From a virus: a stretch of DNA of 57,528 nt. Shown here piece after piece: positions 2,420-48,054 of the stretch. The stretch lies in the IMG/VR virus record IMGVR_UViG_3300027746_000023, positions 1 to 57,528 of that record; one strand, 5' to 3'. How positions within the stretch are numbered: position 1 is the stretch's first letter; each line of letters begins with the position of its first letter. The position numbers and the translations under genes were made by a program. A model generated the notes under the pieces. It was not told the DNA's origin and searched no databases. It was given only the letters and a program-made list of their open reading frames with translations.

Positions 2420-2439
2420 GCCTGTGCAAGGGTGTCAAA
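2417..2439 (-). promoter_or_regulatory. Start-associated sequence, TTTGACA-N13-ATG
   Basis: Upstream of the head-tail joining gene; there is no overlapping stop codon here, so the motif is not merely a stop-codon context. The same sequence occurs at 41072-41094. Confidence 0.65.
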
Positions 2440-3662: not shown

Positions 3663-3704
3663 GGTGTTTTTTTAGGTGAGCAGTTGGATTCGGGTTTTCG
3701 TGAT

Positions 3705-4226
3705 TTATTGCGGTGTCAAATTTTTGGCCGCGATTTCGAGCGCCTTGCGGTTTGCGCGGAAGATGCGTGTCTTCTCTGCGCCTGTGGCGTTACGCCATTG
3801 TTCAAGGATGTTCTCTGCGTTCTGAGTTGGCAGGACTTCGGGGGTTTCGCGGGCGGCTGAGAGGCCGAGGCTGCGCTCGAGGCGGTCGAGTGATTCGCGC
3901 TCCACGGCGATTTCGCTGCGGAGGAATTCGATATTTGCGCTGGCTTCTTTGAGTCCGGCCACGGCTGCATCGCGCTCGGCGATGACGGCGTTGTATTTGG
4001 CGAGGATGGCATCAGCGGCGGCGAGTTTTGCCTGTGGCTCGGCGGGAGCTTCGACAACTTCGGGCGCGGGAGCTTCGACGGTCTCGGTTTCGACGACCTC
4101 TGTTTTATTGGTCGTTTCGACCATTGTCTCGGCAGGAGCGGATTCGCTCACGACGGTGGCGGTGATGATCTCAGCGGCTTCTTCAGCGACTTCGGCTGAG
4201 TAGGTGATGACTTCTGTTTGGTTCAT
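3705..4226 (-). CDS. Predicted nested scaffold protein, in frame with protease C-terminus, 173 aa
   Basis: An in-frame ATG at 4226 begins MNQTEVITYSAE. TTTTGACA lies 23 nt upstream, the only copies inside a gene being here and in phage B's protease. The product would have an acidic N-terminal region, a coiled coil (SILAKYNA-like repeat, then RSEIAVERESLDRLERS) and a basic C-terminus, the usual scaffold layout. Lambda Nu3 is the known precedent. Expression from this start is inferred. Confidence 0.5.
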   Translation of the reverse strand: MNQTEVITYSAEVAEEAAEIITATVVSESAPAETMVETTNKTEVVETETVEAPAPEVVEAPAEPQAKLAAADAILAKYNAVIAERDAAVAGLKEASANIEFLRSEIAVERESLDRLERSLGLSAARETPEVLPTQNAENILEQWRNATGAEKTRIFRANRKALEIAAKNLTPQ

Positions 4227-4838
4227 AGAGCTTGATGCCTTTGCGAATTTGTCAAAACGAGCCCGGAGCATTTCGGGGGTTGCGGTGGCTGCTGCGGCAA
4301 CGCCTTCTTCGATGGCGTCGGCGAATCCAAGGGCCACGGCTTCGACTGCATCGAGCCAGGTTTCTTCGTCCATCATTTTGGCGATCTCTTCGGCATCCAT
4401 GCCGGTCTTGCGCACGTAGGCGTTGACGAGAGTGCTCTTGAGCTTGTCGAGAAGGTCGGCTTCTTTGCGGAGGTCTTTGCTCTCGCCCATGGAGACGGTC
4501 CAAGGATTATGAATCATCAAGAGTGCATTATCGGCGATAAAGACCGGCGAACCGGACATTGCCACTACGCTCGCCATGGACGCAGCCAAGGCATCGATGT
4601 GGACGGTCAGACCGCCTTCGTGCCTGCGTAACGAATTATATATCGCAGTCCCTTCAATGACACTTCCGCCCGGAGAATTGATGCGGAGGTGGATGTGTTG
4701 GCCTGAGAGTTTGCCGAGGTTAGAGAGGAATTCTTTGCTGCCTGCGCCAAAAGCACCGATCTCGTCGTAGAGAGTGACGGTGGTTTCGTTGTTGCCGGTT
4801 TGTTCCAAAGCATAAAATTTCGGGGTGGGTGTGGTCAT
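3705..4838 (-). CDS. ClpP-like prohead protease with C-terminal scaffold domain, 377 aa
   Basis: Residues 1 to about 190 match the ClpP/S49 (clan SK) fold: RINSPGGS at 52-59, AASMAS with candidate nucleophile Ser87, and LLMIHNPW with candidate His110. Residues after about 205 are an acidic Glu/Val-rich stretch followed by a coiled coil and a basic end, typical of scaffold. It cleaves the scaffold during prohead maturation. An internal start at 4226 (see next entry) would give scaffold alone, like lambda C/Nu3. The start overlaps the portal stop. Confidence 0.85.
   Translation of the reverse strand: MTTPTPKFYALEQTGNNETTVTLYDEIGAFGAGSKEFLSNLGKLSGQHIHLRINSPGGSVIEGTAIYNSLRRHEGGLTVHIDALAASMASVVAMSGSPVFIADNALLMIHNPWTVSMGESKDLRKEADLLDKLKSTLVNAYVRKTGMDAEEIAKMMDEETWLDAVEAVALGFADAIEEGVAAAATATPEMLRARFDKFAKASSSMNQTEVITYSAEVAEEAAEIITATVVSESAPAETMVETTNKTEVVETETVEAPAPEVVEAPAEPQAKLAAADAILAKYNAVIAERDAAVAGLKEASANIEFLRSEIAVERESLDRLERSLGLSAARETPEVLPTQNAENILEQWRNATGAEKTRIFRANRKALEIAAKNLTPQ
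4224..4256 (-). promoter_or_regulatory. Internal TTTGACA motif before nested scaffold start
   Basis: TTTTGACA with a 23-nt spacer to the ATG at 4226; the longest spacer accepted in the set. Support comes mainly from the equivalent internal site in phage B at 42521-42545. Confidence 0.4.
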
Positions 4839-6316: not shown

Positions 6317-6336
6317 GCCACTGGCGGCGTGTCAAA
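6314..6336 (-). promoter_or_regulatory. Start-associated sequence, TTTGACA-N13-GTG with hairpin
   Basis: CACGCC and GGCGTG form a perfect 6-bp inverted repeat around a 6-nt loop and the GTG start sits in the 3' arm. The TGA in TTTGACA is the stop of the previous gene. Confidence 0.65.
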
Positions 6337-6607: not shown

Positions 6608-6627
6608 GCCTCGGCGGGCGTGTCAAA
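6605..6627 (-). promoter_or_regulatory. Start-associated sequence, TTTGACA-N13-GTG with hairpin
   Basis: No upstream stop overlaps this copy. CACGCC/GGCGTG arms again enclose 6 nt and include the GTG start, as at 6314-6336. Confidence 0.7.
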
Positions 6628-7287: not shown

Positions 7288-7290
7288 AGG

Positions 7291-8994: not shown

Positions 8995-10337
8995 GCGAGG
9001 CGCTTGGGTTCTTTGCCGGTGGCGTCGGCCCAACGTTGGATCGCCACGGCGACATAGGCGGGGCTGATTTCGATGGCACGGCATTTGCGGCCAAGCTGCT
9101 CGCACGCCATGATGGTGGTGCCGGAGCCGCTGAAGGGTTCGTATGCGAGGCCGGGCCATGCCGATATAATAAAAGCCGGAAGCTGTGGAGGGAAAATGGC
9201 TGGATGGTCAATGTCGTGGCCGCCAGTCATTCTGTTTATCCTGACAATGGAATCTGGTATTTTGCTTGATTGAGCAGACGCGTCAGGAGAAGAAAATTTC
9301 CGACATATGCCGTCCTTTCCGCGCATTGTAGATGCTCCTGTTTTTCTTGCTTTTATGTTTTCCGGCTTTTTGTCCAGAACCTTTCCAGCCCTGATTGCCG
9401 ACTTGTTGAAGTGGAAAATGAATTCATGCGAAGGCGCAAACCTGCCATTCCAATCTCCTGGCAGTCCGAATCCCTGATCCCACACATACCAACCGAACCG
9501 ACGCCACCCTTTATCACGCATCCAATCAATCCACTTTTCCCAATACGGAATCCACTCGCCCTCGCTGTGAATCAAACCAAGATTCACAAGCACCTGCCCA
9601 GCTTCAGACATAGGCAGCGCACCAAAGACGCCGCGCATCAGTTCGTCCCAATCAGAAACTTTTTCCGTCGCGGCGTCGCGGTAGTCGCGCTGCTGTCCGT
9701 AGGGCGGTGACGTAAAACAAATGTCCGCGCGCTCGCCTTTCATCAGCGCGCCCACATCCTTCTCGCTCGTTGAATCCCCACACAGCAACCGATGCTCGCC
9801 CAACTCCCAAAGCTGGCCCGTCTCCACGCCCCACTTGGCGCGGAGTTCTTCGGCTTTGTCGATCTGTGCTTCGGCGTCGGCGTCTGATTTTTCAGGTTCG
9901 TCCTCCATATCGAGGTCGGCAAGGTCTTCAGCGCCGAACCCAATCGCTTCGAGGTCAACATCCAGTTCTCCAAGGTCCGCCAGCTCGAGCTTAAGCATTT
10001 CTTCATCCCACCCACCGCCGATCTCCGCGAGGCGGTTGTCGGCGAGGATGTAGGCTCGGCGCTGCGTGTCGGTGAGGTGGCCGAGGCGGATGCAGGGGAC
10101 GGACTCGAGGGCGAGGGATTGAGCGGCGAGCACGCGACCGTGACCGGCGATGATGCCATTGTCCTTGTCGATGAGGACGGGGTTGGTAAAGCCGAATTCT
10201 TTTATACTTCCGCACAACTTTGAGATTTGAGCGGCGTCGTGCTTTTTCGCGTTATTTTTATATGGCGCCAAATCCGAAGGCTTCAAATGCTCAACAACAA
10301 TATTTGACAACGTTTCTTTTTTTGTGTTTTCTTTCAT
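8991..10337 (-). CDS. ParB-like domain fused to DNA methyltransferase, 448 aa
   Basis: Residues 1 to about 130 form a ParB/sulfiredoxin-like domain (NPVLIDKDNGIIAGHGRVLAAQSL). The rest is a beta-class amino-methyltransferase with catalytic CFTSPPYGQQRDY and a late SAM-binding motif EPFSGSGTTIMACEQLGR. Fusions of this kind are common next to phage terminases and protect or mark DNA. I start at ATG 10337; a TTG lies at 10346. Only 2 bases separate this start from the divergent HNH gene. The modified site cannot be predicted. Confidence 0.85.
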   Translation of the reverse strand: MKENTKKETLSNIVVEHLKPSDLAPYKNNAKKHDAAQISKLCGSIKEFGFTNPVLIDKDNGIIAGHGRVLAAQSLALESVPCIRLGHLTDTQRRAYILADNRLAEIGGGWDEEMLKLELADLGELDVDLEAIGFGAEDLADLDMEDEPEKSDADAEAQIDKAEELRAKWGVETGQLWELGEHRLLCGDSTSEKDVGALMKGERADICFTSPPYGQQRDYRDAATEKVSDWDELMRGVFGALPMSEAGQVLVNLGLIHSEGEWIPYWEKWIDWMRDKGWRRFGWYVWDQGFGLPGDWNGRFAPSHEFIFHFNKSAIRAGKVLDKKPENIKARKTGASTMRGKDGICRKFSSPDASAQSSKIPDSIVRINRMTGGHDIDHPAIFPPQLPAFIISAWPGLAYEPFSGSGTTIMACEQLGRKCRAIEISPAYVAVAIQRWADATGKEPKRLA

Positions 10338-36010: not shown

Positions 36011-37606
36011 TTAAGCGAGGACAGGGGTTGAGTTGCCGCCAATGCGAGCCGCAATCTGGCGGAGGAATTGGGTTTGCTTGCGCGTCTCATCGAGCAGCGC
36101 GGTGGGCGCACCGGCAATGCCGCCGCCACCACCGATCTTTGCCAGGCTGCTGGCAAAGAGTGGCTGATTGGAGGCTTGTTTACCTTGGTCGGCCTCCCCG
36201 CCAAAGTTGCCGAGTGCCGGGAGCTTGGTGCCTCCTGGTGTGTTAATAGCTGGCAGGGCGGCTTGGGCTTTGGTTTTGAGAGATTCCACGGTAGTCCCGA
36301 GGCGGGCAAAAGTTTCGTCCAGATTGGCCTGCACGCCGGAAACATCCACGGCACTACTGGCTCCGTCGAAACCTTGCTGGAATCCATTTCCTGCGGCGGC
36401 GAGTGTCGCGCCGATGCGTTGCTTGGCGGCGTCCATGAACGGCGTGAGCTTGTCGGCTCCAGAGGCGAGATTGGAGTCGGCGCTGCCTTGGAGAGATTGG
36501 CCAGCTCCTTTGATTGCCGCCATTGGTTTTTCAAGCATGCCGGCGAGGCCAGGGATTTTTGAAAACAGCGACAGAGCCTCGGCAATGATACCCAGTAGCT
36601 TTGCTCCAAACGCTTGAGCAGCGCCAATCAACGCATCCAGCATGCCCTTCCAGAAATCCGGCTTTGTCACGAAGCCAAACATTGTGACGGCATTCTGCAT
36701 CAACTCGGGCAGGAGCGCGCCGAGTGCAGCCATGATTCCTTGCAGGCTAGCCCAAAGGAAATTCACAGCATTCCCCAGCGAGATTTTTATCGAGTCGCCC
36801 ATGATCGACCAGATCGAGCCATCTGTCATGGCGGTGATAAACATGGCGGCTGCGCTCCCGATCTGCTGGCCAAGTGCGGTGAAGTCCATTTTGTTGAACT
36901 CTTCCACGAGCGGCAGGATCGCGGGGGCGATGGACTCTGCCATGCCGACAAAGACACCTTGGAGCTTGGTGCTGGCTCCATTGAGAAGATCGGAGACGCG
37001 GTCGAAAACAGCGGCATTTTTGTCCATGACGCCAGCCTGCGACCCGAGCGTGTCCGCAGCAGTTGCCAGCGCGCCAGAGTCGCCGAATAGCGTGAGCATC
37101 TTGCCTCCGCTTTTGCCGAAGATTTCCATGGCGGTGGCGGCTCGGGCTGTTGGGTTCTCAATGCCATTGATCGCTTCGCCGATCTTCTTGAAAGCCTCGT
37201 CAGGAGACATGCTGGAAAGTTCTTCAGCGGACAATCCCACACGAGCCAGGGCATCTGCTGCGGGACCGCTCCCACCAGCAGCATCAGCCAGCGCTTTTTG
37301 CATCTTGTTAATGGTCTTCCCCACTTCTCCAGCACCGATCCCCGCTTGGTCAAATGCGGTTTGCAGGAGCATGACTTTGCCAGTTGTCATGCCGGTCTGC
37401 CCCGCGATGTCGGAGAGAGCGCCGCCTAGATCGAGGGCTTTCTTCACGCCTACGGCAGCCACGCCCAGCGCGGCAAATGCGGCGGCACCCGCAGCGGCCA
37501 CGCCGACCATGGCGGGTTTGAGGGATGCGACGGATGTCTGAGCTTTTTTTATCGCGGTCTGAAGACCTGTATCCTTGGCTCCCAGTGTGACTGTTACGTC
37601 GGCCAT
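36011..37606 (-). CDS. Tape measure protein, 531 aa
   Basis: A long helical protein with a hydrophobic Ala/Gly-rich stretch (MVGVAAAGAAAFAALGVAAVG) near residue 40 and further hydrophobic helices around residues 270-340, the usual design of a TMP. AKDTGLQTAIKKAQTSVASL at the start is typical. Length predicts a short flexible tail. TAATATG junction with the upstream gene. Confidence 0.85.
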   Translation of the reverse strand: MADVTVTLGAKDTGLQTAIKKAQTSVASLKPAMVGVAAAGAAAFAALGVAAVGVKKALDLGGALSDIAGQTGMTTGKVMLLQTAFDQAGIGAGEVGKTINKMQKALADAAGGSGPAADALARVGLSAEELSSMSPDEAFKKIGEAINGIENPTARAATAMEIFGKSGGKMLTLFGDSGALATAADTLGSQAGVMDKNAAVFDRVSDLLNGASTKLQGVFVGMAESIAPAILPLVEEFNKMDFTALGQQIGSAAAMFITAMTDGSIWSIMGDSIKISLGNAVNFLWASLQGIMAALGALLPELMQNAVTMFGFVTKPDFWKGMLDALIGAAQAFGAKLLGIIAEALSLFSKIPGLAGMLEKPMAAIKGAGQSLQGSADSNLASGADKLTPFMDAAKQRIGATLAAAGNGFQQGFDGASSAVDVSGVQANLDETFARLGTTVESLKTKAQAALPAINTPGGTKLPALGNFGGEADQGKQASNQPLFASSLAKIGGGGGIAGAPTALLDETRKQTQFLRQIAARIGGNSTPVLA

Positions 37607-37607
37607 A

Positions 37608-38387
37608 TTATTGTTGGAGGCCCGCCTCCTTGGTTTTCTGCTTGCGAATTGCGTGGTTCATCATGCTGAAAAATTTTCGACGGGCGAGGTTGACCGCAAA
37701 GGATTGGCCGTTTCCGGAAAGAGTTTCTCGAGCGTAGCGGACGCCGTTTTTGAGTTTGATTTCCCAAGAAAAGCCTGTGGCTTTACGGTCGTTTATAGAC
37801 CCTTTTGCTTGTGCCATGTTTCGCCGCACCCACGCTGGAATGCCGCGCAATGGTTGGCGCGTATCGGCTTTGCATGCGGCAGCCGCAATGCCCCACCCTG
37901 CTTTTGCAAGACCGACTTTTTTTAGCGTTTCCTTTAGATATTTCCGATAGGCGGCTTGCTTGATAATTCCGCGATCCAGCATTTTGAGCGCTTTAGTCGT
38001 CCCGTCAGGAGAGCGGTTTTTTTTATGAAATGTTTTAGCTGACTCAGCGCTTGCAATCGTTTCCTGTGTGTCACGCGCCCATACGATGCTCGACTTTGTG
38101 TGGACAAGCACTTCGCGCCCTTCTTTGCCCATATTCATAACGGCCCGCCACCAAGCGGGATTTACGATTGTAAAAATACTACGAAGATTTCTTGTGATCT
38201 TTTTTTCACCTCGTTTTTTTGCTGCTACGTTAGCCCCTTTGGGCGCTGTGTTTTTTGCAAGTTCAACGGCGCAGAGCCGCCCGGCGTTATGGACAAGTTG
38301 GCGAACTTCCTTGCCCACGACTTGCTCGTATTTACGCATCTTGCTAAGCATCTTCGCGTCGTCGATTTTTATGGTGGGCGCTGGCAT
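37608..38387 (-). CDS. Tail-locus protein between chaperone and tape measure, 259 aa
   Basis: Basic protein; I choose ATG 38387, which avoids overlap. Starts PAPTIKIDDAKMLSKMRKYEQVVGKEVRQLVHNAGRLCAVEL, reminiscent of HK97 gp10-type minor tail proteins. Unusual in lying between the chaperone frames and the tape measure. AT-rich codons in its central part. Confidence 0.6.
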   Translation of the reverse strand: MPAPTIKIDDAKMLSKMRKYEQVVGKEVRQLVHNAGRLCAVELAKNTAPKGANVAAKKRGEKKITRNLRSIFTIVNPAWWRAVMNMGKEGREVLVHTKSSIVWARDTQETIASAESAKTFHKKNRSPDGTTKALKMLDRGIIKQAAYRKYLKETLKKVGLAKAGWGIAAAACKADTRQPLRGIPAWVRRNMAQAKGSINDRKATGFSWEIKLKNGVRYARETLSGNGQSFAVNLARRKFFSMMNHAIRKQKTKEAGLQQ

Positions 38388-38388
38388 T

Positions 38389-38999
38389 TTATTCGTCGTC
38401 CTCGTCAATAGTTGGCAGCGAAGTCAAAAGCGAGGCGAGGTCGTGCTCGGCCGGGGCGGAGGGCTTGACGGTCCAGACGCCATGCGCGCGCAGGGCGGCG
38501 TGTTGGTAGGCCAGCGCGCGGTGCAGTGGAAGTTCCCATAGTATGTAGTGTTCGGGCCATGCGGTTTCTCGGGCCAGGGTGAAGACCATCGAGGCGGCCT
38601 GCCCTGGCTCAATTAGTTTGGGGGGATGTTTTCCTCTTTCTCTCCGGGCTTGGATTCGACGCTGAAGGATGCTGCGCTTACTTGCTCCCCGATTCGGTTC
38701 AGCTCGGCGCTGAGTTCACCCACTCGGGAGAGGTCGATCGAGAACATAAAAGCGTCGATGGCTTCATCCGATTTGCCTGTGTGCACGGCGCGCAGGACGT
38801 CGGCAATCGGTGCGCTTTGTAGCCAAGCGACGGCGGCGAGGTTGCGCATCTGGTCGGCCTCGGAGAGCGTCCCATCGATGGTAATCCCAAGGCGCTGCAT
38901 GAGGTGGAATGAGCCAATACTGAATGGCCGCATTTTTAGCCCGGCGACCTCAAGCATGTCGGGGCTGAGAAACATATAGTCGGATTTTGGGTCGATCAT
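38389..38999 (-). CDS. Predicted frameshifted tail chaperone gpG-T fusion
   Basis: The zero-frame gene ends EENIPPN-stop. A C CCC CCA heptamer at 38619-38625 (minus strand) is an ideal -1 slip site two codons before that stop. The -1 frame then reads KLIEPGQAAS into the downstream 66-residue frame at 38389-38589. Lambda and many siphophages make such G/GT products at a low ratio before the tape measure. The prediction rests on the slip site, frame and location. Confidence 0.7.
38613..38999 (-). CDS. Tail assembly chaperone (gpG-like), 128 aa
   Basis: Helical protein starting MIDPKSDYMFLSPDML, with PIADVLRAVHTGKSDEAIDAFMF, ending in a Glu-rich tail and the slippery site. It binds the tape measure during tail assembly, by analogy with gpG. 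ATGA-coupled to 38996-39496. Phage A's copy begins at base 343. Confidence 0.65.
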   Translation of the reverse strand: MIDPKSDYMFLSPDMLEVAGLKMRPFSIGSFHLMQRLGITIDGTLSEADQMRNLAAVAWLQSAPIADVLRAVHTGKSDEAIDAFMFSIDLSRVGELSAELNRIGEQVSAASFSVESKPGEKEENIPPN

Positions 39000-39496
39000 T
39001 TGAGGTAGGAGAGGAGTTTTTCTTTTTTGTCCTGGGGAAGCTCGGCGGGGATCGTGACCATGCGGTTGCCGCGTCGGAGCACGGCAGCGGGAGTCATGGC
39101 GCGAATCTTGTCACGCAGCTCGGAGAGGTGGCGGGCGCTCCACCGCATAAACGCAATCGGGTGGTGTGAGTGCTCGAGGCACCACTGCTCGCTCTCGTAG
39201 CGGCTGCGGAATTCTTCGAAGTCAATTTCCTCTCGGCCTTCTGCTGTCACAAAAAGCCCTTTGCTGGAGCCGTCGATAAACCACTCAACTTTGCGAAGCG
39301 GTCCCTTCTCCGTCTGTTCAACGGTGTCGCGGAATCCACCGGAGTCTACGAGCCGGAATCCGCTGGTGAGCGCGTCGGCAATGAGCCGGGTATTTGCCGC
39401 GTTGAGCGGGTTGTTGCCGTAGCGCACGCGGCCATCGGCGTTTTTTTCACCGAGGCAAAACTCGGTGATGTAGTGGTAGCTGTCTCCTGATTTCAT
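38996..39496 (-). CDS. Conserved tail-module protein, 166 aa (phage B)
   Basis: Homologue of 340-840. Differences from phage A are mostly conservative (for example LVDSGG for LIQTGG). EHSHHPIAFMRWSARHLSELRDKIR is unchanged. It lies in the same position between tube-like proteins and chaperone. Unknown function. Confidence 0.75.
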   Translation of the reverse strand: MKSGDSYHYITEFCLGEKNADGRVRYGNNPLNAANTRLIADALTSGFRLVDSGGFRDTVEQTEKGPLRKVEWFIDGSSKGLFVTAEGREEIDFEEFRSRYESEQWCLEHSHHPIAFMRWSARHLSELRDKIRAMTPAAVLRRGNRMVTIPAELPQDKKEKLLSYLK

Positions 39497-39510
39497 AATG
39501 TGATCGGTAG

Positions 39511-39527
39511 GCAGACGGCCGGTCTGC
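39511..39527 (-). terminator. Conserved hairpin after tail-tube gene (phage B)
   Basis: GCAGAC/GTCTGC stem with a GGCCG loop, the same as 855-871 in phage A apart from one loop base. Confidence 0.4.
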
Positions 39528-39547
39528 GAGCGGGCGCTTGTGCGCGG

Positions 39548-39868
39548 TTAGGTAGCTGACGGGAAGGCTTCTCCCGAGTATTCCCAAGACTCCCAGTCGT
39601 CATTGTTCGTCTGGTTTTTGATTGAGTTGATGATGACTTTGCCCGTGACGCCGGAGGGTTTGCCAGTGCCTGCGGCATTTATTGATACAGGGCAGACCGC
39701 CCCCTTGCCGGACACGGTGAAAGAAAACTTGGGGTCGAATACGGCGGCTTTTGAGTATTTCCCTGCCTTGTCCACTAGGATCGAAACCTCGCCTTGTGAA
39801 GTGACTTCCACGCTTTGCGCAGTGGTGTGTGTAACTAAATTTATTCCGATTGCGGTTGGTGCGGCCAT
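39548..39868 (-). CDS. Small beta-rich tail tube-like protein, 106 aa (phage B)
   Basis: Homologue of 892-1212. Variable N-terminal third (AIGINLVTHTTAQ) but conserved VEVTSQGEV and KVIINSIKNQTNNDDWESWEYSGE. Likely tail tube or related beta-sandwich protein by position. Confidence 0.6.
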   Translation of the reverse strand: MAAPTAIGINLVTHTTAQSVEVTSQGEVSILVDKAGKYSKAAVFDPKFSFTVSGKGAVCPVSINAAGTGKPSGVTGKVIINSIKNQTNNDDWESWEYSGEAFPSAT

Positions 39869-39871
39869 AGG

Positions 39872-40180
39872 TCAGTTCGAGGCAAATTGTTGATAGGTGA
39901 CTTCGTAGTCAGGGAAATCCTCGGCGGATTCGGAGGTTTTTGCCGAGGTGATGACAGCTGTGCCGGTCACATTTGCATTAGCCGTAACGGCCGGAGCGTA
40001 GCTTCCCTTGCCCTTGATCACGATTTCTGTGGTGGTCACGCCTTTCAGCACGGCGAGTTTTGTCACGCCACTCGTATCACGCACGGTTGCAATCTCGGCA
40101 GATTCGGTTTTCGTCGTTTCTTGAACGAAACCCGAAGCCGGGTCTGTGACGCCAAAAAGATCAATCGTTGCAAAGGCCAT
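39872..40180 (-). CDS. Small beta-rich tail protein, 102 aa (phage B)
   Basis: Homologue of 1215-1523 starting MAFATIDLFGVTDPASG. It shares the GKG-centred beta pattern with 39548-39868, which suggests a duplication predating the split of the two phages. Confidence 0.6.
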   Translation of the reverse strand: MAFATIDLFGVTDPASGFVQETTKTESAEIATVRDTSGVTKLAVLKGVTTTEIVIKGKGSYAPAVTANANVTGTAVITSAKTSESAEDFPDYEVTYQQFASN

Positions 40181-40182
40181 GG

Positions 40183-40338
40183 TTATTCGGTGGTGGTGGG
40201 TTCGGCTGGGACGACCAGCGTAAAATAAATTTCCTTCTTCGTGCCGCCTGCGACTGGCACAGAGCCGATGCTTGCAAAGGCTCCGGCAGCGTTTGCCTCT
40301 TCGACAAGGGCGGTGAGTTTTTCAAGAAGCTCGCTCAT
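40183..40338 (-). CDS. Small tail-region protein, 51 aa (phage B)
   Basis: Counterpart of 1525-1683, with one Glu fewer at the C-terminus and ASIGSVPVAGG in the middle. TTTGACA precedes the ATG by 15 nt, as in phage A. Confidence 0.65.
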   Translation of the reverse strand: MSELLEKLTALVEEANAAGAFASIGSVPVAGGTKKEIYFTLVVPAEPTTTE

Positions 40339-40360
40339 TTGCCTTGTTTCAGTTGTCAAA
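40336..40360 (-). promoter_or_regulatory. Start-associated sequence, TTTGACA-N15-ATG
   Basis: Same spacing and near-identical spacer as 1681-1705 in phage A. Confidence 0.6.
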
Positions 40361-40754
40361 TTTCTCGGACACCGATCACAATCTCGGCCGTCGTGTGCAG
40401 GCGGTCATTTTCCCTCGCCTCCGACCAACTTGTGAGATGCCGCCCGCTGAACGCGAGCGCTTGTGGAAAAAATGCCGAGACGCCCGAGAGGTTCGCACCA
40501 GCGCGAAGCGAGGCAGCAAGCGAGCGGTGCATTTCCAGCGAATCCTCAATGACGGCAGGCGTTGAAAGCGTGATCTGCACGGTGGCTCTGTAAAGGCCAG
40601 CAACAGTGCTGTTCGCGTTATCACACGAGACGACAACAACCGGCATGTCTCCGGGGATTTCTTTATCATCGGTGGCTGTGTGAATGGCTACGCCCTCCAA
40701 CTCGGGAAGGTCGTGCAGGTAATTTGCAACCGCATTTTGGATTTCAAGAGTCAT
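40356..40754 (-). CDS. Tail completion/minor tail protein, 132 aa (phage B)
   Basis: Homologue of 1701-2099 with the same AEIVIGVREI end. Diverged in the surface-like middle (TATDDKEIPGDMPVVVVSCDNANS). Positional assignment to tail completion. ATGA-coupled to the head-tail joiner. Confidence 0.6.
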   Translation of the reverse strand: MTLEIQNAVANYLHDLPELEGVAIHTATDDKEIPGDMPVVVVSCDNANSTVAGLYRATVQITLSTPAVIEDSLEMHRSLAASLRAGANLSGVSAFFPQALAFSGRHLTSWSEARENDRLHTTAEIVIGVREI

Positions 40755-41074
40755 AGTGAGGAGCCTGGAACGATGGTGGTGACGAACTCAAACGGCGTGC
40801 CGGTCTGCTCGCGCACGGTGGCAATGGTGTAGGTCTTGCCATCGATCAAAAGCTGCTCGCCACGGCGGGGAGCGGATTGCACGGACGAGGCCAGAAAGCG
40901 TGCGGTGAATTCGCCGCCTTGGCGCAGGCCGCCGGTCTCGAGATCAAGACCGATGGCGATGGCGGACAGGCCGACGCGGATGCTCTGCCCGCGAAAGGTA
41001 GCAGGCTTGCCGAGGAGCGTATTGCGCGCCGTGGCAGCTAGGTTTTCGAGGTGGTCTTTTTGCGCAGGCGACAT
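40751..41074 (-). CDS. Head-tail joining protein, 107 aa (phage B)
   Basis: Homologue of 2096-2419, differing at few positions (QSIRVGLSA, VQSAPRRGEQLLIDGKTYTIATV). Follows the capsid gene and a strong hairpin. ATG 13 nt after TTTGACA. Confidence 0.55.
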   Translation of the reverse strand: MSPAQKDHLENLAATARNTLLGKPATFRGQSIRVGLSAIAIGLDLETGGLRQGGEFTARFLASSVQSAPRRGEQLLIDGKTYTIATVREQTGTPFEFVTTIVPGSSL

Positions 41075-41094
41075 GCCTGTGCAGGGGTGTCAAA
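41072..41094 (-). promoter_or_regulatory. Start-associated sequence, TTTGACA-N13-ATG
   Basis: Spacer CCCCTGCACAGGC holds a small CCTG/CAGG palindrome. The motif lies directly after the capsid terminator. Confidence 0.65.
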
Positions 41095-41099
41095 AGCAG

Positions 41100-41135
41100 A
41101 ACGCCCGACCGGAAAAGGCTAACCGGTCGGGCGTT
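41100..41135 (-). terminator. Strong hairpin after capsid gene (phage B)
   Basis: Perfect 13-bp stem AACGCCCGACCGG/CCGGTCGGGCGTT with a 10-nt loop, 20 bases after the capsid stop. CTGCTTTTGACA follows on the minus strand. Probably a partial terminator or RNA stabiliser that sets the capsid-to-connector ratio. Confidence 0.65.
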
Positions 41136-41155
41136 TGCGGGTGCGGGATGCGGGA

Positions 41156-42007
41156 TTAGGCGGCTGGGACGATGAGGGACATCGTGCCGTCAGTGAGGCC
41201 AGCGGCGGCTCCGAACATCACTTCCAGGGATGCGATGAGCGAGCGAGTAGTTTTGTCGCTGTAGACATTGTAGGCCACGGTGAGGCCGATCTCGTCGAGA
41301 GTGACCGAGTCGGATATCATGTAGTCGTTATCCGCAAGAGCAGGAACGGCGGCGGCCATGACGAGCGCTTCGGGTGAGCAGGCGAACCCTTTGAGGTTAG
41401 CCTGGCCGCCGAATACGGTGGCGTAGTGAACCCCGTTCTCGAAGCCGTAAGCTCCATCACCGAGGTTCAGCGCTGTGGTGCTAGTCGGGATGAGATTCGA
41501 GTAGATGACGGGCGAGACCACGAGGCCTTTGCGCATGCTCTTGTGGACGGCTGCCCAGAGCTTGGGAAGAGCGCCAGAGTTTGCGTTGATGCCGGACTCG
41601 GCAGAGGTGACGGTGGCGGCGCCGAAATTGGCAACGGTCACAGGGGCAGTGGCGAGCAGCCAGATTTTGTCGGCAATGGCGTCGAGATTGATCTGGATGA
41701 GGCGCTCCAAGCGGTGTGCGGATTGGAGGTCGCTGTAGCTCAAACCAAATGGCTGATAAACATGGTCAAGAGTGACACTGGCTTTGCCGAGTGTCGTTCC
41801 GCCGATGCTGTTGAATGTGGTGGGGTTCACCGATGTGGCAGCAGTCGCAGAGGCAATGGCAACATGGACCGTGTCTTTTGGCTTCTTAACATCGGAGGAG
41901 AAATCCGAAGCGAAGAGGTTGAGAGCGCTGAGGCGCTTGCTAAGGATGGTTTTGGTTTGTGCGGAGATAGAATCCGCAACCAAGGATGAATCGAATGTAT
42001 TGGGCAT
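41156..42007 (-). CDS. Major capsid protein, 283 aa (phage B)
   Basis: Equivalent in position to 2757-3662 but strongly diverged. N-terminal helix, a VTLDHVYQPFGLSYSDLQSAHRLERL segment corresponding to phage A's KRKYQPFSFTSAEAARQ region, and a C-terminal beta region (VYSDKTTRSLIASLEVMFG). HK97-type fold inferred. Confidence 0.8.
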   Translation of the reverse strand: MPNTFDSSLVADSISAQTKTILSKRLSALNLFASDFSSDVKKPKDTVHVAIASATAATSVNPTTFNSIGGTTLGKASVTLDHVYQPFGLSYSDLQSAHRLERLIQINLDAIADKIWLLATAPVTVANFGAATVTSAESGINANSGALPKLWAAVHKSMRKGLVVSPVIYSNLIPTSTTALNLGDGAYGFENGVHYATVFGGQANLKGFACSPEALVMAAAVPALADNDYMISDSVTLDEIGLTVAYNVYSDKTTRSLIASLEVMFGAAAGLTDGTMSLIVPAA

Positions 42008-42049
42008 TTTGGTGGTGGTTTTGGTTGTTGGTGTCGGGTTCTCCTCGGC

Positions 42050-42523
42050 TTACGCTTTGGAAACTTTATTGCGGTGCGCCCAGATGGCGGCCTTGTGCTT
42101 GGCAAATAGGGTGGATGCGGCTTTGCGGTCGCCGGACTCGATGGCGGCGAGATACTCGGCCACGGGATCGGCGGCTTCTGGAGCGGCATTTTCGATGAGC
42201 GGGACGACGCGGGCGGGAGCCAAGCCGAGGCTGGCCTCAAGGCGGGCAAGGGCTTCGCGTTCGCGGGAAAGTTGGCCCTTGGCGGCGACGAGCTCGGCTC
42301 GGAGCGAGTCGCGCTCGGCGGAGATAGCGTTGTATTTTGCCAGGATGGAGTCGGCGGCGGCGAGTGCCACGGGAGCGGCAGGCTCTTCGGTGACGGGCTT
42401 TTGGGTTTCTTCCTCGCCGGCGGGTTGCTCAACGGGAGCGGATTCGCTCACGACGGTGGCCTCGGGGGTCTCGGTGAGCGCTGGCTCTTCGGCGATGATT
42501 TCGGGTTCGGATGGATTTTCCAT
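42050..42523 (-). CDS. Predicted nested scaffold protein, 157 aa (phage B)
   Basis: In-frame ATG at 42523 (MENPSEPEIIAEEPA) follows TTTGACA by 15 nt, the same spacing as ordinary gene starts here. The product would be acidic then coiled-coil then basic, a scaffold layout. The equivalent internal site in phage A strengthens the case. Lambda C/Nu3 provides the precedent. Confidence 0.6.
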   Translation of the reverse strand: MENPSEPEIIAEEPALTETPEATVVSESAPVEQPAGEEETQKPVTEEPAAPVALAAADSILAKYNAISAERDSLRAELVAAKGQLSREREALARLEASLGLAPARVVPLIENAAPEAADPVAEYLAAIESGDRKAASTLFAKHKAAIWAHRNKVSKA

Positions 42524-43135
42524 TTGCAGGGCGCGGGCTGTCAAATCGGCGGGAGCGTTGCGATACTTCGCCAGGGCGCGGAAATTTGCGGAGGCTGCGA
42601 GAGCCATGCCGTCGGTGATCTCATCCACAAAACCGGCGGCCTGCGCCTGCTCGGCGGTGAACCAGGTCTCGGCATCCATCCACTGCTCAATGAGCGCTGG
42701 CTCTTGGCCGGACTTCGCGGCGTAGGCGTTCACCATGTTTTGCCGGATGCGGTCGAGAAGCTCGGCCTGCTTGCGCATCTCGGAGGAGTCGCCAACGGCG
42801 GATCCCCAGGGATTGTGAATCATGTAAAAACCATTTTCAGCCATTCTCACGGGGCTACCTGCCAGGCTGATGACCGTGGCCATACTGGCCGCAATGCCCT
42901 CGATCTGGACCTCTACATTTCCTCTCCGCTGGAGCGCTGTGAAGATGGCATTGCCGTCGAACACCTCTCCGCCAGGGCTGTGAATCTTGAGGAGTATGGA
43001 GTGGTCGGCAGGGACAGCTTGCAAATCGCCGATGAATTGCTTGGCAGAGACGCCAAACATTCCGATCTCATCGAAAATGGAGATTTCGGTTTGCTTGAGC
43101 GCAGGTTTGTAAGAAAGGGCATACCAGGAGTTCAC
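42050..43135 (-). CDS. ClpP-like prohead protease with C-terminal scaffold domain, 361 aa (phage B)
   Basis: KIHSPGGEV at 50-58, IAASMATV with Ser84, and YMIHNPW with His107 give the ClpP-like catalytic set. After residue about 195 come an acidic Glu/Pro-rich stretch and the coiled coil SILAKYNAISAERDSLRAEL. GTG start at 43135 is 13 nt after TTTGACA. A second, internal motif precedes Met at 42523. Confidence 0.85.
   Translation of the reverse strand: MNSWYALSYKPALKQTEISIFDEIGMFGVSAKQFIGDLQAVPADHSILLKIHSPGGEVFDGNAIFTALQRRGNVEVQIEGIAASMATVISLAGSPVRMAENGFYMIHNPWGSAVGDSSEMRKQAELLDRIRQNMVNAYAAKSGQEPALIEQWMDAETWFTAEQAQAAGFVDEITDGMALAASANFRALAKYRNAPADLTARALQMENPSEPEIIAEEPALTETPEATVVSESAPVEQPAGEEETQKPVTEEPAAPVALAAADSILAKYNAISAERDSLRAELVAAKGQLSREREALARLEASLGLAPARVVPLIENAAPEAADPVAEYLAAIESGDRKAASTLFAKHKAAIWAHRNKVSKA
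42521..42545 (-). promoter_or_regulatory. Internal start-associated sequence, TTTGACA-N15-ATG
   Basis: Lies inside the protease gene and marks the nested scaffold start. Spacing matches 1681-1705 and 40336-40360. Confidence 0.55.
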
Positions 43136-43155
43136 GCCTCCGGTGGCATGTCAAA
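43133..43155 (-). promoter_or_regulatory. Start-associated sequence, TTTGACA-N13-GTG
   Basis: Overlaps the stop of 43151-43387. Arms CATGCC/GGCGTG enclose 6 nt and include the start; GGAGG also lies before the GTG. Confidence 0.65.
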
Positions 43156-43387
43156 AGGCGGGGCTGGATTTTCCAAAGAAAAACGAGTCGGTGCCGAAGC
43201 GGTGCTTGGCGACCTGGTATCTCTGCTGAATCTCACGCCGCTCGGCGGTGCGGCTCCAGAAATAAGCCTCGGCGCGCTCCATGTCCGCGCCCAACCGCGC
43301 GCACCAGGCAGACTCACGCAACTCAAGGCAGCCAGCGGATGTCTGGAGGTGGATAGCTTTGCGACCTCTCGTCCTACGTATTTGCAT
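43151..43387 (-). CDS. Small basic protein before protease gene, 78 aa
   Basis: Arg-rich start (IRRTRGRKAIHLQ), a CLELRESAWCARLG segment and a helical ERREIQQRYQVAKHRF region. It lies between portal and protease and is absent from phage A. It may aid head assembly. No family recognised. Confidence 0.55.
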   Translation of the reverse strand: MQIRRTRGRKAIHLQTSAGCLELRESAWCARLGADMERAEAYFWSRTAERREIQQRYQVAKHRFGTDSFFFGKSSPAF

Positions 43388-43550
43388 ATTTGCGGTGGCG
43401 GATGTAGTCGGCCAAGTTGAGTTGCACGGGTGGCTCTGGCTTAGGCTGCGGAGCAGGCGGCACGCTGTAGAGTGGACGCCCGAGCTTGGCGCGCAGGGCG
43501 TTCAGAAACGGAAGGTGCTCAGACTTGGGCTGAAGTGCGGGCGACTTCAT
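43374..43550 (-). CDS. Small Pro-rich protein between portal and protease, 58 aa
   Basis: Frame from ATG 43550 overlaps the portal end by 32 nt and the next gene by 14 nt. Contains FLNALRAKLGRPL then a PPAPQPKPEPP linker and LNLADYIRHRKYA. It covers the otherwise empty gap after the portal. An earlier ATG at 43565 is possible. Supported by fit, not homology. Confidence 0.4.
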   Translation of the reverse strand: MKSPALQPKSEHLPFLNALRAKLGRPLYSVPPAPQPKPEPPVQLNLADYIRHRKYANT

Positions 43551-44964
43551 GCGAGGGGAAGACATCGGCGGGGTTGAGGCCAAGGGCTGCGCATTTCTCC
43601 TGGCGGCGGAGGTAGCCAGAGATGATGGCGTCTTCGGTTTCCACGGAATTGATGCCATGGATGTCGCAGTAGTATTCCCACGACATATAGCCACTATCGA
43701 GGAGTTGGGCATACAACCTGCCATCCCTGCCGTTATCGACGGTGATTTTCTTTGGAGCGCGGAAGGAGCAACGCCACCAATCGTCTCCTGGGTAAGGAAG
43801 TCGGCCCGACTGGATCTCGTGCCACACCCAGTATTTCCAAAACGGCCTGCAAAATTGATCGACGAGCATTTGCTGCAAGCGCTCAAGGAAATTCTGCGCA
43901 ATCTCCAAGATGCCTCGAAACTCGGTGCCTGCGGCTCCAGTCGTAAGCATGATAGCCTCGGGCGGAAGGCCGATGCCTCGAGCGATCTCGCCCATGATTG
44001 TATTGATGAAAGGCTCGAAGGAAGTTCCGGGGTGCTCGTTTTTGAAACTCTGAATGGATTCGCCGGGGCGGAGCTTGGGGATTAGTGTGCCGTTGTAAAG
44101 GGTCTCGGTGGTGATGTCCTGCGGGACAACATCACCACTTTGAAGGCTGGAGAGGCCGCCGCCGAGGCGGACGGCTTCATTGCTGGTGATGGCAAACGCA
44201 ATTTGAGCGCCTGCTTTGGCAGAGCCTTTTTCGTAGGCGAGATACTCCAGAAGATCGTGGCAATTCACGATGGCGTTATGCAACCATGAGACACCGCGTG
44301 GGTAGCCCGAGCGCCGCACATGTCGGAAGTGGAGTATATCGGAGGCGGGGACATCCTGGTATTTCCCGGCCGATCTGTCGGTGATGACGCGGTAAGAGAC
44401 CGGCGCTCCATATTTGTCGAGAAGCACGCCATCAAAGGCTCGCTCGCTGGAATCGGCTGTGGAGCCTACAGTTTCACCGCCAAGAAAACGAACGCGAGCA
44501 GCACCGGCATCCGTCTTCAGAAACTGCGCGAAGAAGTCGCCATCGACCGCAACCTGGCGAATGATGAGGCTCTGCGCGCCAAAGAAATTGACCTGTGCGG
44601 AGGAATCAAAAGACCACGCCTCGGCACAGGCGCGGTCCAGAAATGCGCGCTCGGCGAGGCGATTCCACTCGGCATTTGCTGTCGTAGGCTTCGGGCGAAT
44701 GCCGGTGCCGACCGCTCGCTGTGCCAAATGTTCGATGAGGTATGAAGCGACGCCGAGGTTGTTGTAAAGCCAGCGACTTTTTTTCAGCAACTCGATGCGA
44801 GTTTGCGGCGGGGCCTCGCGCTTGGGGTCCACGGTATTAAGGACGATGAGGCCGCGATTGCGGGAGAACTCAGCGGCTTCGTAAGCAGCGGCTTTTGGCC
44901 GACCTGCACCGGGGCGAGCGCCGCCGCGATTTGATTTGTTTGAATTTTTTTTGATTTGCGGCAC
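43519..44964 (-). CDS. Portal protein, lambda family, 481 aa (phage B)
   Basis: Shares with phage A's portal the SNRGGARPGAGRPK start, SRWLYNNLGVASYLIEHLAQRAVGTG, HVRRSGYPRGVSWLH and QMLVDQFCRPFWKYWVWHEIQ segments. GTG start at 44964 after TTTGACA. It forms the portal ring. Confidence 0.85.
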   Translation of the reverse strand: MPQIKKNSNKSNRGGARPGAGRPKAAAYEAAEFSRNRGLIVLNTVDPKREAPPQTRIELLKKSRWLYNNLGVASYLIEHLAQRAVGTGIRPKPTTANAEWNRLAERAFLDRACAEAWSFDSSAQVNFFGAQSLIIRQVAVDGDFFAQFLKTDAGAARVRFLGGETVGSTADSSERAFDGVLLDKYGAPVSYRVITDRSAGKYQDVPASDILHFRHVRRSGYPRGVSWLHNAIVNCHDLLEYLAYEKGSAKAGAQIAFAITSNEAVRLGGGLSSLQSGDVVPQDITTETLYNGTLIPKLRPGESIQSFKNEHPGTSFEPFINTIMGEIARGIGLPPEAIMLTTGAAGTEFRGILEIAQNFLERLQQMLVDQFCRPFWKYWVWHEIQSGRLPYPGDDWWRCSFRAPKKITVDNGRDGRLYAQLLDSGYMSWEYYCDIHGINSVETEDAIISGYLRRQEKCAALGLNPADVFPSHEVARTSAQV

Positions 44965-44984
44965 GCATGCTGTGGCGTGTCAAA
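44962..44984 (-). promoter_or_regulatory. Start-associated sequence, TTTGACA-N13-GTG with hairpin
   Basis: CACGC/GCGTG arms with an 8-nt loop include the GTG start. The TGA is the stop of 44980-45261. Confidence 0.65.
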
Positions 44985-45261
44985 CAGGGGAGGCGTAGAG
45001 AGAGCGGTCCACAACAGCGCACAGGGAGCGCGGCGCGTTGCCTTCGGCATAGACCTCCATGATCACGGCGAGGCGGGCGGTCTTGGGAAGATCACTGACC
45101 TGCGCGCCGGTGCCGGTGCCATCTCCCGAAAGGCTGGTGATGATGGTTTCCTCGATGCCGGACTCCACCGCTGCGGCCATGGTAAGAAGCTCGGCCTTTG
45201 ATTTGCCGAGGGCTTTCAGATAGGCCTTGTAGCCTGCGCGTGCGGTGTCGGATGCGGTCAC
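44980..45261 (-). CDS. Head-tail connector-like protein at gpW position, 93 aa (phage B)
   Basis: Homologue of 6332-6607 through IITSLSGDGTGTGAQVS and the DRSLYASPV end. GTG start 13 nt after TTTGACA. Probably a connector, by position between terminase and portal. Confidence 0.6.
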   Translation of the reverse strand: MTASDTARAGYKAYLKALGKSKAELLTMAAAVESGIEETIITSLSGDGTGTGAQVSDLPKTARLAVIMEVYAEGNAPRSLCAVVDRSLYASPV

Positions 45262-45281
45262 AAGCGGATCGACCTGTCAAA
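45259..45281 (-). promoter_or_regulatory. Start-associated sequence, TTTGACA-N13-GTG
   Basis: Lies after the terminase stop with no overlap, so the motif stands independently of stop codons. Confidence 0.65.
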
Positions 45282-45288
45282 AGGGAGA

Positions 45289-46995
45289 CTATTTCAGAAC
45301 CCACCACGCAACTCCGTGGAGTTTCGAGCAGTCGCCGTAGTGATCTTCGGCGACTTTTTTCCAAAAGAATGGAGCAAGGCGAGAGTTTTTGTTTTGAAGG
45401 AGTTGTTGGCCACTATGGCCGGAGACGAAGTCTTGGCCAATGTCGGCAGGGAGGTGGAGCGGTGGGGGCATCTTTTTATTGATGCGCTCGAGGTAGAGCT
45501 CGAGCTTCGCGGTGTGGTCGATGTAGGTGACGAGGCGAAGGCCGGGGTAGCCGTTGATGGCGCTTTGGTTCCAAGTGCCGAAGGCGGCGGTGGAGCCTTT
45601 AGATGGAATGAAGAGGCCGCCGCTGCGGGAGCATATAGAGTAAACGCGCTCGGCACTCCATCCGGAGTCGATGAGGCCGAAGCTGGGGGTGAAGATTTTT
45701 TCGCCGAAGGCATAGCGGCGGGCCTCGAGGAACGCGGGGCTGATGAGATCCTCGATGGCGAGGACGGTGCCGTAGTCGATGACCCACGACTCGCCGCTCT
45801 GGATGCGGGCCTCGACGGTCCAGTGGGTCTGGCGTTCGCCGGGGTCGGCGCAAAGGGTAAGCACGAGTGGCTCGACGGGGAGCTCGCGGAGGCGGTAGTC
45901 GGGCGACCGAAGGGCGAGGATGGCGTCGTCTTTGACTGTTGCCGCGCGGTTTTCCCACGGCAGGCCGAGGAAGTTATTGTGGAAATCGTGTAGCCCTCCC
46001 GGGGTTTCTTTTTTCTGGAGGAAGATGCGGGCGAGATCGCCCCAGGAGATCTGTGGCGAGTAGAGCGCGGAGATGTGGCAGGAGATGTGGTCTGCGTGGG
46101 CGCGGGGATTTGAGGCGACCCACTCGCCACGGCGGATGATGTCGCTCTGCATGGACTGAGGCCAGCGGGCTTCGCATGACTCGCAAGCGTAGGTGGTATC
46201 GCGCTCGACCCCGGCGAGGTCCCACTGGGAGGCGAGATCGCGGTGATGCTCGGGCCACTTGAGTTGCTCAAATCGGAGGTGCTGCATGTGCAGACACTCG
46301 GGACATGGCACATAAAAGCGGTGCTGGCTCCCGGCAAGGAACTGCGTCCAGATCGCGCCGCTCTCGACGGTGGGTGTGGAGGTGAGGCAGGCCTTCGAGA
46401 CGCGACGGTAGAAATTCAAGCGCGCCATGGCGAGCTCGAGGGCCGGGGCCTCAAGGGAGGAGTCGTCTGGCCACTTGTCCACCTCATCGGCAAAGAGGTA
46501 GCGGATTGCGCGACTCGCCAAATTTCCCTCGGAACAGGCACCGACGAGTTTGATCGTGCACGTGGAGAAGTGCATCTCGGTCTTGCGGAAATCGTCATCG
46601 TTTGAAGGGAGCAGATGCTTGATAGCTTGGCAGGAGCGCAGGCGCGGATGGAGCTCGCGCTCAGACCAGGACTTGGCGTTTTCGTTGGTGCTGGTCACAT
46701 ACAAGATCGGGCCGGGGTCTTCGCTGATCGCCCACATGAGGCAGTTCGCCAACCAGGTGGTTCCTCCGACCTGAGCGGACTTCACAAAAGTGAGTTGCCG
46801 GATTTTCGTATCCGAGAACCACAAGTGGAGCTGCCGGAGATAAGGCGTGTAATCGGCATCGTAGCGACCAGGTCGTGGCGAGAAGCGCTTGTCGAGGTGG
46901 ACATTTTCTTGAGCCCACTCCAAAGCGGAGGGACGCCGACCGGGGTCCCAGATGCGGTCGAGCTGTTCTTGGAGCTCTTCAAGCAGAGAGGCCAT
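45289..46995 (-). CDS. terL: Terminase large subunit, GpA family, 568 aa (phage B)
   Basis: FVKSAQVGGTT (residues 70-80) is the Walker A region and YLFADEVDKW the Walker B region. Zinc-type CPECLH and CESCEARW follow, and LCADPGERQTHW and GLIDSGWS mark the nuclease. Overlaps the small terminase gene by 17 nt. Only distantly similar to phage A's enzyme, so the packaging modules differ. Confidence 0.9.
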   Translation of the reverse strand: MASLLEELQEQLDRIWDPGRRPSALEWAQENVHLDKRFSPRPGRYDADYTPYLRQLHLWFSDTKIRQLTFVKSAQVGGTTWLANCLMWAISEDPGPILYVTSTNENAKSWSERELHPRLRSCQAIKHLLPSNDDDFRKTEMHFSTCTIKLVGACSEGNLASRAIRYLFADEVDKWPDDSSLEAPALELAMARLNFYRRVSKACLTSTPTVESGAIWTQFLAGSQHRFYVPCPECLHMQHLRFEQLKWPEHHRDLASQWDLAGVERDTTYACESCEARWPQSMQSDIIRRGEWVASNPRAHADHISCHISALYSPQISWGDLARIFLQKKETPGGLHDFHNNFLGLPWENRAATVKDDAILALRSPDYRLRELPVEPLVLTLCADPGERQTHWTVEARIQSGESWVIDYGTVLAIEDLISPAFLEARRYAFGEKIFTPSFGLIDSGWSAERVYSICSRSGGLFIPSKGSTAAFGTWNQSAINGYPGLRLVTYIDHTAKLELYLERINKKMPPPLHLPADIGQDFVSGHSGQQLLQNKNSRLAPFFWKKVAEDHYGDCSKLHGVAWWVLK

Positions 46996-47578
46996 CCAGT
47001 CTTATGTCTTTCGCCGCGCGCATGATCTCATCGGTCTCGGCGCGGACCTTGGATGCAATGTCATCGCCCACTTGCGGCAGCAGGGAGAGCAGCCGGTCAG
47101 GTAAATTTGTGACGGCAGCCGCGATGGCCGCCGAGTATTGGATAACGAGCTGGATGGCAACCTTGCGAGGCACCATGTCTCCTGACTCCCGTTGGATCGA
47201 GGGCGCGTCCTTTTCCAACCGGCGCAACGCCTCGGCATGCTGGAGCCACATGCGCCTGAGCGCCATCTCCGCATCCAAGTCGCCGGTGAGCTTGGCAAGT
47301 TCGGCCCGCTCGCGCAGGTCGGCCGTGGCCTCCTTCATCTTCCGCACCTGGTTGTCGAGGGCCAATTCCTCATCCGTCCACTCTCGTGCCGGTGCCGAGG
47401 TAGCCTGGGCCGGTGCAGCCGCCCCCATTGGCACCATCCCGGCGACCGCTCTGGCAGCCAGAAATCCATTCCAGCGCGGATCCGCCGAGTCGCGCCACTT
47501 GCGCACGGCACGAGTTGTCACGCCGTGCTTCGCAGCACATGCCTTGATGAGGTCCGCTTGTTCCCTTCCGTGACGCAT
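46979..47578 (-). CDS. terS: Terminase small subunit candidate, 199 aa (phage B)
   Basis: N-terminal HTH (ADLIKACAAKHGVTTRAVRKWRDSADPRW) followed by a helical oligomerisation region (DNQVRKMKEATADLRERAELAKL). Immediately upstream of the large terminase. ATG at 47578; TTTGACA lies 22 nt before. DNA recognition for packaging. Confidence 0.75.
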   Translation of the reverse strand: MRHGREQADLIKACAAKHGVTTRAVRKWRDSADPRWNGFLAARAVAGMVPMGAAAPAQATSAPAREWTDEELALDNQVRKMKEATADLRERAELAKLTGDLDAEMALRRMWLQHAEALRRLEKDAPSIQRESGDMVPRKVAIQLVIQYSAAIAAAVTNLPDRLLSLLPQVGDDIASKVRAETDEIMRAAKDIRLDGLSA

Positions 47579-48054
47579 AGGTGTTTACGGAACGGCAAAT
47601 TGTCAAACGGAACGGAAGCGGAACGGGTTCCGGTGTTCCGGTTCCGTATAGTTTCAAGAGCGTTCTCTCAAAAATTACGAGCGACCGATAAACTGCAGAG
47701 TCGAACCCCGCAAAAAGATTCCTTGCTTGCGGAACTTGGAGAACTCGAAGCGCAGGTGCGCAGGTAGAAAACTTTTCTTTCTGACGATACCCACACCCAT
47801 AAATAAAAAACTCAAAAGACCTATGCTACCTATGCCACCTTGCAGAACAGAAACGCACAAAACTCTTGGCAAACAACTTGTGAGCCAGCGAAAGAGACAA
47901 GGTCCTGCGTAGGTGCATAGGTCGCGTGCAATCTCTATCAAAAAGGGTGTGGGATGGGTGATGAAGAAGTGGAAGCGCGATGACCTGCGCATGACCTGTG
48001 CGGAAACAAAAAGGCCCGCCGAGCTGGCGGGCCTTGTGAGGTATGGAGTCGGGG
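47579..48054. promoter_or_regulatory. 476-nt gap with GGAAC-type repeats near terminase
   Basis: No gene is visible. Direct and inverted copies of CGGAACGG and CCGGAAC crowd 47588-47648, just before the small terminase gene, the usual place for a terminase recognition (cos/pac) site or operator. The rest to 48000 has no clear structure, except for short TATGCNACCT repeats near 47820. Confidence 0.5.
48011..48035 (-). terminator. Rho-independent terminator after helicase gene
   Basis: AAGGCCCGCC/GGCGGGCCTT, a perfect 10-bp stem with a 5-nt loop, followed on the minus strand by TTTTTGTTT. It ends the primase-helicase transcript. Confidence 0.85.

Follow-up and report, generated by a model that had tools for sequence, protein, structure and literature searches.

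Results

A proposed second in-frame start within a phage protease gene

The stretch of DNA analysed here, referred to as the window, comprises 57,528 nucleotides (nt) of the virus record IMGVR_UViG_3300027746_000023 and holds two related head modules, phage A and phage B. We focused on the protease gene of phage B, whose neighbours are a portal gene of the lambda family (PF05136) on one side and a putative capsid open reading frame (ORF) on the other. The product matched head maturation protease families in PHROGs and carries a ClpP-type domain (PF00574, 1e-31), in which S84 and H107 were invariant across 41 aligned proteins. The original prediction had proposed that a start-associated sequence inside this gene marks a nested scaffold, and we could confirm the coordinates and frame of the heptamer TTTGACA and its ATG as well as the nested ORF of 157 amino acids (aa). 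The locus is composed of the following features.

42050..43135, minus strand: full-length ORF for protease and proposed scaffold, 361 aa, GTG start
42611..43099, minus strand: ClpP-type protease domain, residues 13-175
42539..42545, minus strand: start-associated TTTGACA inside the protease gene, read ..T TTG ACA (Leu-Thr)
42521..42523, minus strand: in-frame ATG, proposed nested scaffold start, 15 nt after the in-gene TTTGACA
42050..42523, minus strand: nested ORF, 157 aa, proposed scaffolding protein with an acidic disordered part, a long helix and a basic helical end
42230..42367, minus strand: long helix predicted by AlphaFold, residues 257-302 (46 residues)
42059..42166, minus strand: C-terminal helices predicted by AlphaFold, basic end, three short helices in residues 324-359
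41156..42007, minus strand: gene for the putative major capsid protein, 283 aa, sharing 26% identity with the capsid (major head) protein of phage A

TTTGACA marks gene starts in these phages

TTTGACA occurs 20 times in the window, compared to 7.5 +/- 2.6 times in dinucleotide shuffles, none of which (0/100) reached 20. Eighteen copies lie on the gene strand, and 13 of these precede an ORF start by 13-15 nt, when ORFs of at least 40 aa are considered. We then ranked every 7-mer by its enrichment in the 60 nt surrounding the longest start relative to coding interiors, using 463 ORFs of at least 90 aa from 57 dereplicated relatives of both window protease families (35 A, 22 B). The top start-associated 7-mers were TTGACAC (71 ORFs, 3.4 expected) and TTTGACA (85/463 ORFs, 6.4 expected), with enrichment peaking at -19 and -20. 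Across the loci of the 57 relatives and the window, 245 of 322 TTTGACA copies have a start 8-25 nt downstream, a count that, like that of the 463 ORFs, includes homologous genes of related phages. Within the window itself, the genes preceded by the motif clearly differ: a 91/93-aa ORF, the portal, the protease, the nested ORF, a 107-aa ORF and a 51/52-aa ORF. In 115 of these 245 cases, an open upstream frame of at least 60 codons terminates at the motif's own TGA. TTTGACA is thus associated with starts generally in these freshwater phages. Further start-proximal copies in the phage B module are listed below.

43149..43155, minus strand: TTTGACA, 13 nt upstream of the protease GTG (43135); its TGA is the stop of a 78-aa upstream ORF
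44978..44984, minus strand: TTTGACA, 13 nt upstream of the portal GTG (44964)
45275..45281, minus strand: TTTGACA, 13 nt upstream of a 93-aa ORF (45261-44980)
41088..41094, minus strand: TTTGACA, 13 nt upstream of a 107-aa ORF (41074-40751) with a weak Phage_attach match
40354..40360, minus strand: TTTGACA, 15 nt upstream of a 51-aa ORF; its TGA is the stop of a 132-aa ORF

The commonest distance between motif and start was 13 nt (134 of the 245 sites), followed by 14 nt (33) and 15 nt (31), so that the 15 nt taken as standard spacing in the original prediction is not the usual one. The claim that the nested site is the only in-gene copy holds for a spacing of 13-15 nt; the phage A protease gene, however, has an in-gene copy of its own (4256-4250), followed by an ATG at 23 nt. 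An extended 13-nt motif matched at least 119 viral-contig stretches, compared to 1 for a scrambled control; these were mostly the same phages again and were not used further. No Shine-Dalgarno hexamer was comparably enriched at starts, either in these phages or in the metagenome-assembled genome (MAG) G002. ACCCAAC-type 7-mers were likewise enriched at starts in the related phages.

The in-gene copy is conserved at the nucleotide level

Eighty relatives of the phage B protease were collected with six search peptides, one of which (QMENPSEP) covers the nested start Met and none of which covers the motif. TTGACA, followed after 15 nt by an in-frame ATG, was kept in all 64 loci that cover the site; two further relatives end before the site, and the 14 most distant ones lack the arrangement. 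We compared codon usage column by column in 23 dereplicated sequences (<95% identity), in an alignment anchored on the motif. Among 94 degenerate columns with an invariant amino acid, four used a single codon. When only the 56 columns with four- or six-fold degeneracy were considered, the two motif columns were the only ones of this kind (TTG 23/23 and ACA 23/23), and neither codon is common in these genes, where TTG accounts for 7.3% of Leu codons and ACA for 18.7% of Thr codons. Codons and residues around the motif vary, while the motif and the in-frame ATG stay fixed.

In the A family, TTTGACA was found at the same junction in 81/81 cases (80 loci and the window), in another codon phase (Phe-Asp-x) and with the in-frame ATG 14, 20 or 23 nt past the motif. 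It was one of only two invariant runs of at least 7 nt among 36 A-family sequences; the codon test alone was weaker here, with 16/139 columns using a single codon. Since the two families hold the heptamer in different codon phases, it is the nucleotides and not the amino acids that are conserved. A more distant group of relatives (L391-type) places the motif in a third protein context, ALFDT versus ALLT in the B family, with the first in-frame ATG much farther off. The phases used keep the frame open, because the third phase would read an in-frame TGA stop; this phase was the only one not seen at the protease/scaffold junction in the loci examined. Taken together, the motif and ATG fixed in the B family and the heptamer kept in the A family support the earlier interpretation as an internal start.

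The predicted nested product has scaffold-like features

An AlphaFold model of the phage B protein, built from 41 sequences (mean predicted local distance difference test score, 75.6), showed a protease fold up to about residue 182 and disorder over residues 199-255. The nested start corresponds to residue 205, at the head of this disordered linker and just past the ClpP domain. The net charge of the nested protein was -14 over residues 1-60, +2 over the next 45 and +1 over the last 52 residues, with positive charge concentrated in the last ~27 residues, in agreement with the acidic front and basic end described originally.

The capsid ORF begins within ~60 nt of the end of the protease gene. 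Of 30 surveyed loci, 28 had an ORF of capsid size, measuring 281-301 aa in 26 of them and 383 and 386 aa in the other two (L066 and L069). The delta domain of HK97-like capsid proteins has 102 residues, according to PMC8508860; ORFs of 281-301 aa therefore leave little room for such a domain. The capsid genes of L006-L171 and of the window (41156-42007) have long A/C-rich leaders (CCAACCAACAACCCAAC...) in place of TTTGACA at the standard distance.

Gene order, predicted fold, charge layout, the lack of another scaffold gene and the lack of room for a delta domain lead us to infer that the nested product is the scaffold. Several observations weigh against a nested scaffold start. The nested product had no match in PHROGs at E 0.001, and only ClpP chains were found among the 50 matches listed by Foldseek against the PDB. 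The capsid gene, presumably highly expressed, lacks TTTGACA at the standard distance (0/28 upstream stretches of 44 nt), and spacings of 20 and 23 nt, as seen in the A family, are out of the ordinary. A wider search yielded 80 loci, of which 73 (all but L364-L368, L395 and L108) entered a tally made by eye that includes several loci on contigs already counted: 28 had the motif and an in-frame ATG 12-23 nt on, 10 had the junction motif but no in-frame ATG within 25 nt, and 35 had no junction motif.

Alternative explanations for the motif

TTTGACA might instead be a DNA element whose proximity to starts reflects transcription control, either as part of a promoter or as a site bound by a protein, for instance a stoperator. 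TTGACA equals the sigma-70 -35 consensus, and in Verrucomicrobia phage P8625 (L491) five annotated genes have TTGACA 36-41 nt before their start. Four of these sites lie at -36 (5448, 10772, 15594 and 22442), and three of the four have a -10-like element beside the ATG; judged by their sequence they are promoter-like and would give leaderless or nearly leaderless mRNAs. The stoperators of Cluster A phages, described in PMC3203893, are a precedent. The motif studied here, however, keeps a fixed spacing relative to the start codon and often supplies the stop codon of the upstream frame. Moreover, a TATAAT-like element (4-of-6) at -10 distance was present at only 5/148 sites of 13-15 nt spacing, compared to 4 in a control stretch 100 nt on, and a sigma-70 promoter was rejected for want of this partner. 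We thus regard a DNA element as unlikely.

It is less likely still that the internal start is used for a product other than a scaffold, such as a protease regulator or a capsid-lining protein. Such a role would fit the lack of a named scaffold in PHROGs and among the Foldseek matches listed, but not the portal-protease-capsid order, the disordered and helical layout and a protease-capsid interval too short to house a separate scaffold gene.

Least probable is conservation at the protein level, whereby the protease domain would require Leu-Thr or Phe-Asp and the Met at its end, and the internal ATG would go unused. In favour of this, each family keeps the two motif residues and the Met unchanged, and the A-family test has less power, as TTT accounts for one third of Phe codons and GAC for the majority of Asp codons. 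Against it, the B family freezes codon choice at just these two four-/six-fold sites and at no others, the same heptamer encodes different residues in the two families, and the L391-type relatives carry ALFDT where B has ALLT.

Mode of action of the motif

Pairing with 16S rRNA in the manner of Shine-Dalgarno was rejected, with no exact complement TGTCAA in four host-family 16S genes, whose 3' end is CACCTCCTTTCT. For two host-family genomes, a host-wide ribosome binding signal was rejected as well, TTTGACA lying within 35 nt upstream of 0/305 and 1/202 of their ORFs. We do not claim a hairpin between motif and start, as covariation at no position exceeded independence by more than about one cell. 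The 13-nt class shows a consensus inverted repeat, CACGCC..GGCGTG, that spans the GTG (window 6336-6314, 44984-44962 and 43155-43133), and its folding energy was below that of spacer shuffles (-5.88 versus -3.37); no clear excess was seen in the 14-, 15-, 20- and 23-nt classes, nested starts included.

The phage A module

Terminase, portal, protease and capsid genes occur twice in the window, in two head modules (2000-10000 and 37600-47600) that share one strand and are related yet distinct. The record IMGVR_UViG_3300027736_000079 likewise has two protease genes, both of A type. Two head modules in one record might be tandem prophages or an assembly join. The phage A features are as follows.

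3705..4838, minus strand: ORF for protease and proposed scaffold, 377 aa
4250..4256, minus strand: TTTGACA inside the protease gene, read TTT GAC A (Phe-Asp-x)
3705..4226, minus strand: nested ORF, 173 aa, from the in-frame ATG at 4226, 23 nt past the motif
6330..6336, minus strand: TTTGACA, 13 nt upstream of the portal GTG
6621..6627, minus strand: TTTGACA, 13 nt upstream of a 91-aa ORF
2433..2439, minus strand: TTTGACA, 13 nt upstream of a 107-aa ORF

A further TTTGACA at 3714-3720, at the extreme 3' end of the phage A protease gene, is kept by many A-family relatives; it has no start and is off the standard distance from the capsid start.

Carriers and probable host

In a survey of genome contigs, 11 of 80 loci were examined, together with P8625. 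The arrangement was kept on three prophage-like contigs, from a Burkholderiaceae-labelled MAG (L167), a Chthoniobacter flavus MAG (L168) and a Verrucomicrobia MAG (L171). It was not found in P8625, L169, L170, L172, L173, L175, L176 or L178, and L192 has TTGACA 23 nt before an in-frame ATG, but elsewhere in an otherwise different protein. P8625 was consequently rejected as a family member, its protease having no internal motif, and Vibrio phage K303 showed another arrangement, in which the protease measures 240 aa and the capsid gene product 391 aa. Given the Chthoniobacter and Verrucomicrobia contigs, a verrucomicrobial host is likely.

The host-family genomes G008 and G019 showed no association of TTTGACA with starts. 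In MAG G002, a weak excess was seen upstream of ORFs (4/170 versus 0.2 expected). Counts of the search pattern in five MAGs exceeded those of a reversed-pattern control, and the 27 of G002 were close to a uniform-composition expectation, which is a rough estimate.

Discussion

We consider it likely that the phage B protease gene carries a second in-frame start and encodes a nested scaffold in the manner of lambda C/Nu3, here marked by TTTGACA and built on a ClpP-family protease. Translation from the GTG at 43135 would yield a fusion of ClpP-type protease and scaffold, while initiation at the ATG at 42523 would yield the scaffold alone, in extra copies that would make up most of the scaffold supply. 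The scaffold would assemble together with the capsid protein, the prohead would receive its protease as part of the fusion product, and this protease would then remove the scaffold. In the window, the contrast between the GTG start of the protease and the ATG of the nested ORF fits an excess of scaffold over protease; other relatives start the protease at ATG, and we therefore do not lean on this contrast.

How the motif would act is a more tentative matter. TTTGACA may be a translation start signal of this phage lineage that needs no Shine-Dalgarno pairing and is recognised by some factor, perhaps phage-encoded, so that its placement within a gene, in either of the codon phases that avoid its internal TGA stop, would suffice to create a nested one; we rate this proposal at slightly under even. 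Family scans of 20 further ORFs of the window named no RNA polymerase or RNA-binding factor.

In lambda, C/Nu3 is reportedly a protease-scaffold gene with an internal start; PMC8508860 has Shaw and Murialdo 1980 among its references. The phage B locus resembles it in its lambda-family portal, its gpA-type terminase, a protease and scaffold in one frame and an in-frame internal start that yields the scaffold part alone, the latter being predicted here. The likeness drawn in the original prediction is thus borne out as far as sequence can indicate, by a single frame, preceding the capsid gene, that joins the protease to a scaffold-like region, and by a conserved in-frame start codon at the domain border. 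The lambda gpC protease belongs to the S49 family; in contrast, the protease here is of the ClpP family, the only one among the structural matches listed, and its internal start is marked by the phage-lineage heptamer.

Herpesviruses have a comparable arrangement in UL26/UL26.5, where an in-frame nested scaffold within the assembly protease gene is made from a separate transcript; the protease fold there is unrelated. PMC2949831 names both UL26 and UL26.5. In Pseudomonas phage MD8, the gp5 gene similarly encodes a ClpP-like protease together with a proposed scaffold region, but there the major capsid protein is fused as well and the passages of PMC8508860 consulted report no internal start.

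The start-associated sequence (SAS) of Cluster K mycobacteriophages, as presented in PMC3203893, is a 13-mer (GGGATAGGAGCCC) with a Shine-Dalgarno core (AGGAG), typically 3-7 bp from the start and confined to the non-structural genome half, for which a role in translation initiation was proposed. Like TTTGACA, it is short, non-palindromic, mostly in one orientation, placed before the starts of unrelated genes and practically absent from the host, and it sometimes contains the stop codon of the upstream gene. Unlike the SAS, TTTGACA has no Shine-Dalgarno core, lies 13-15 nt from the start and is found at structural genes and at an in-gene site.

Protease-scaffold nesting is thus known from lambda, and start-associated sequences from Cluster K mycobacteriophages (PMC3203893). 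What is new is that the two come together: a phage start signal of non-Shine-Dalgarno type is kept within a ClpP-type protease gene, where it occurs in two codon phases. A literature search, with subscription journals mostly outside it, found no paper on a phage TTTGACA start signal and none describing a scaffold nested within the gene of a ClpP-type protease.

As a rule, the position of a gene is all that suggests a nested scaffold. Here, the proposed internal start shows as codon-level conservation across many wild phages and is therefore directly testable. The heptamer, present before genes and inside one, offers a clean handle on a non-Shine-Dalgarno start signal, and the in-gene site lets its effect be separated from promoters and gene borders. 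As the in-frame-TGA phase alone was not seen at the junction, a single base would lie between a nested gene and two coupled genes.
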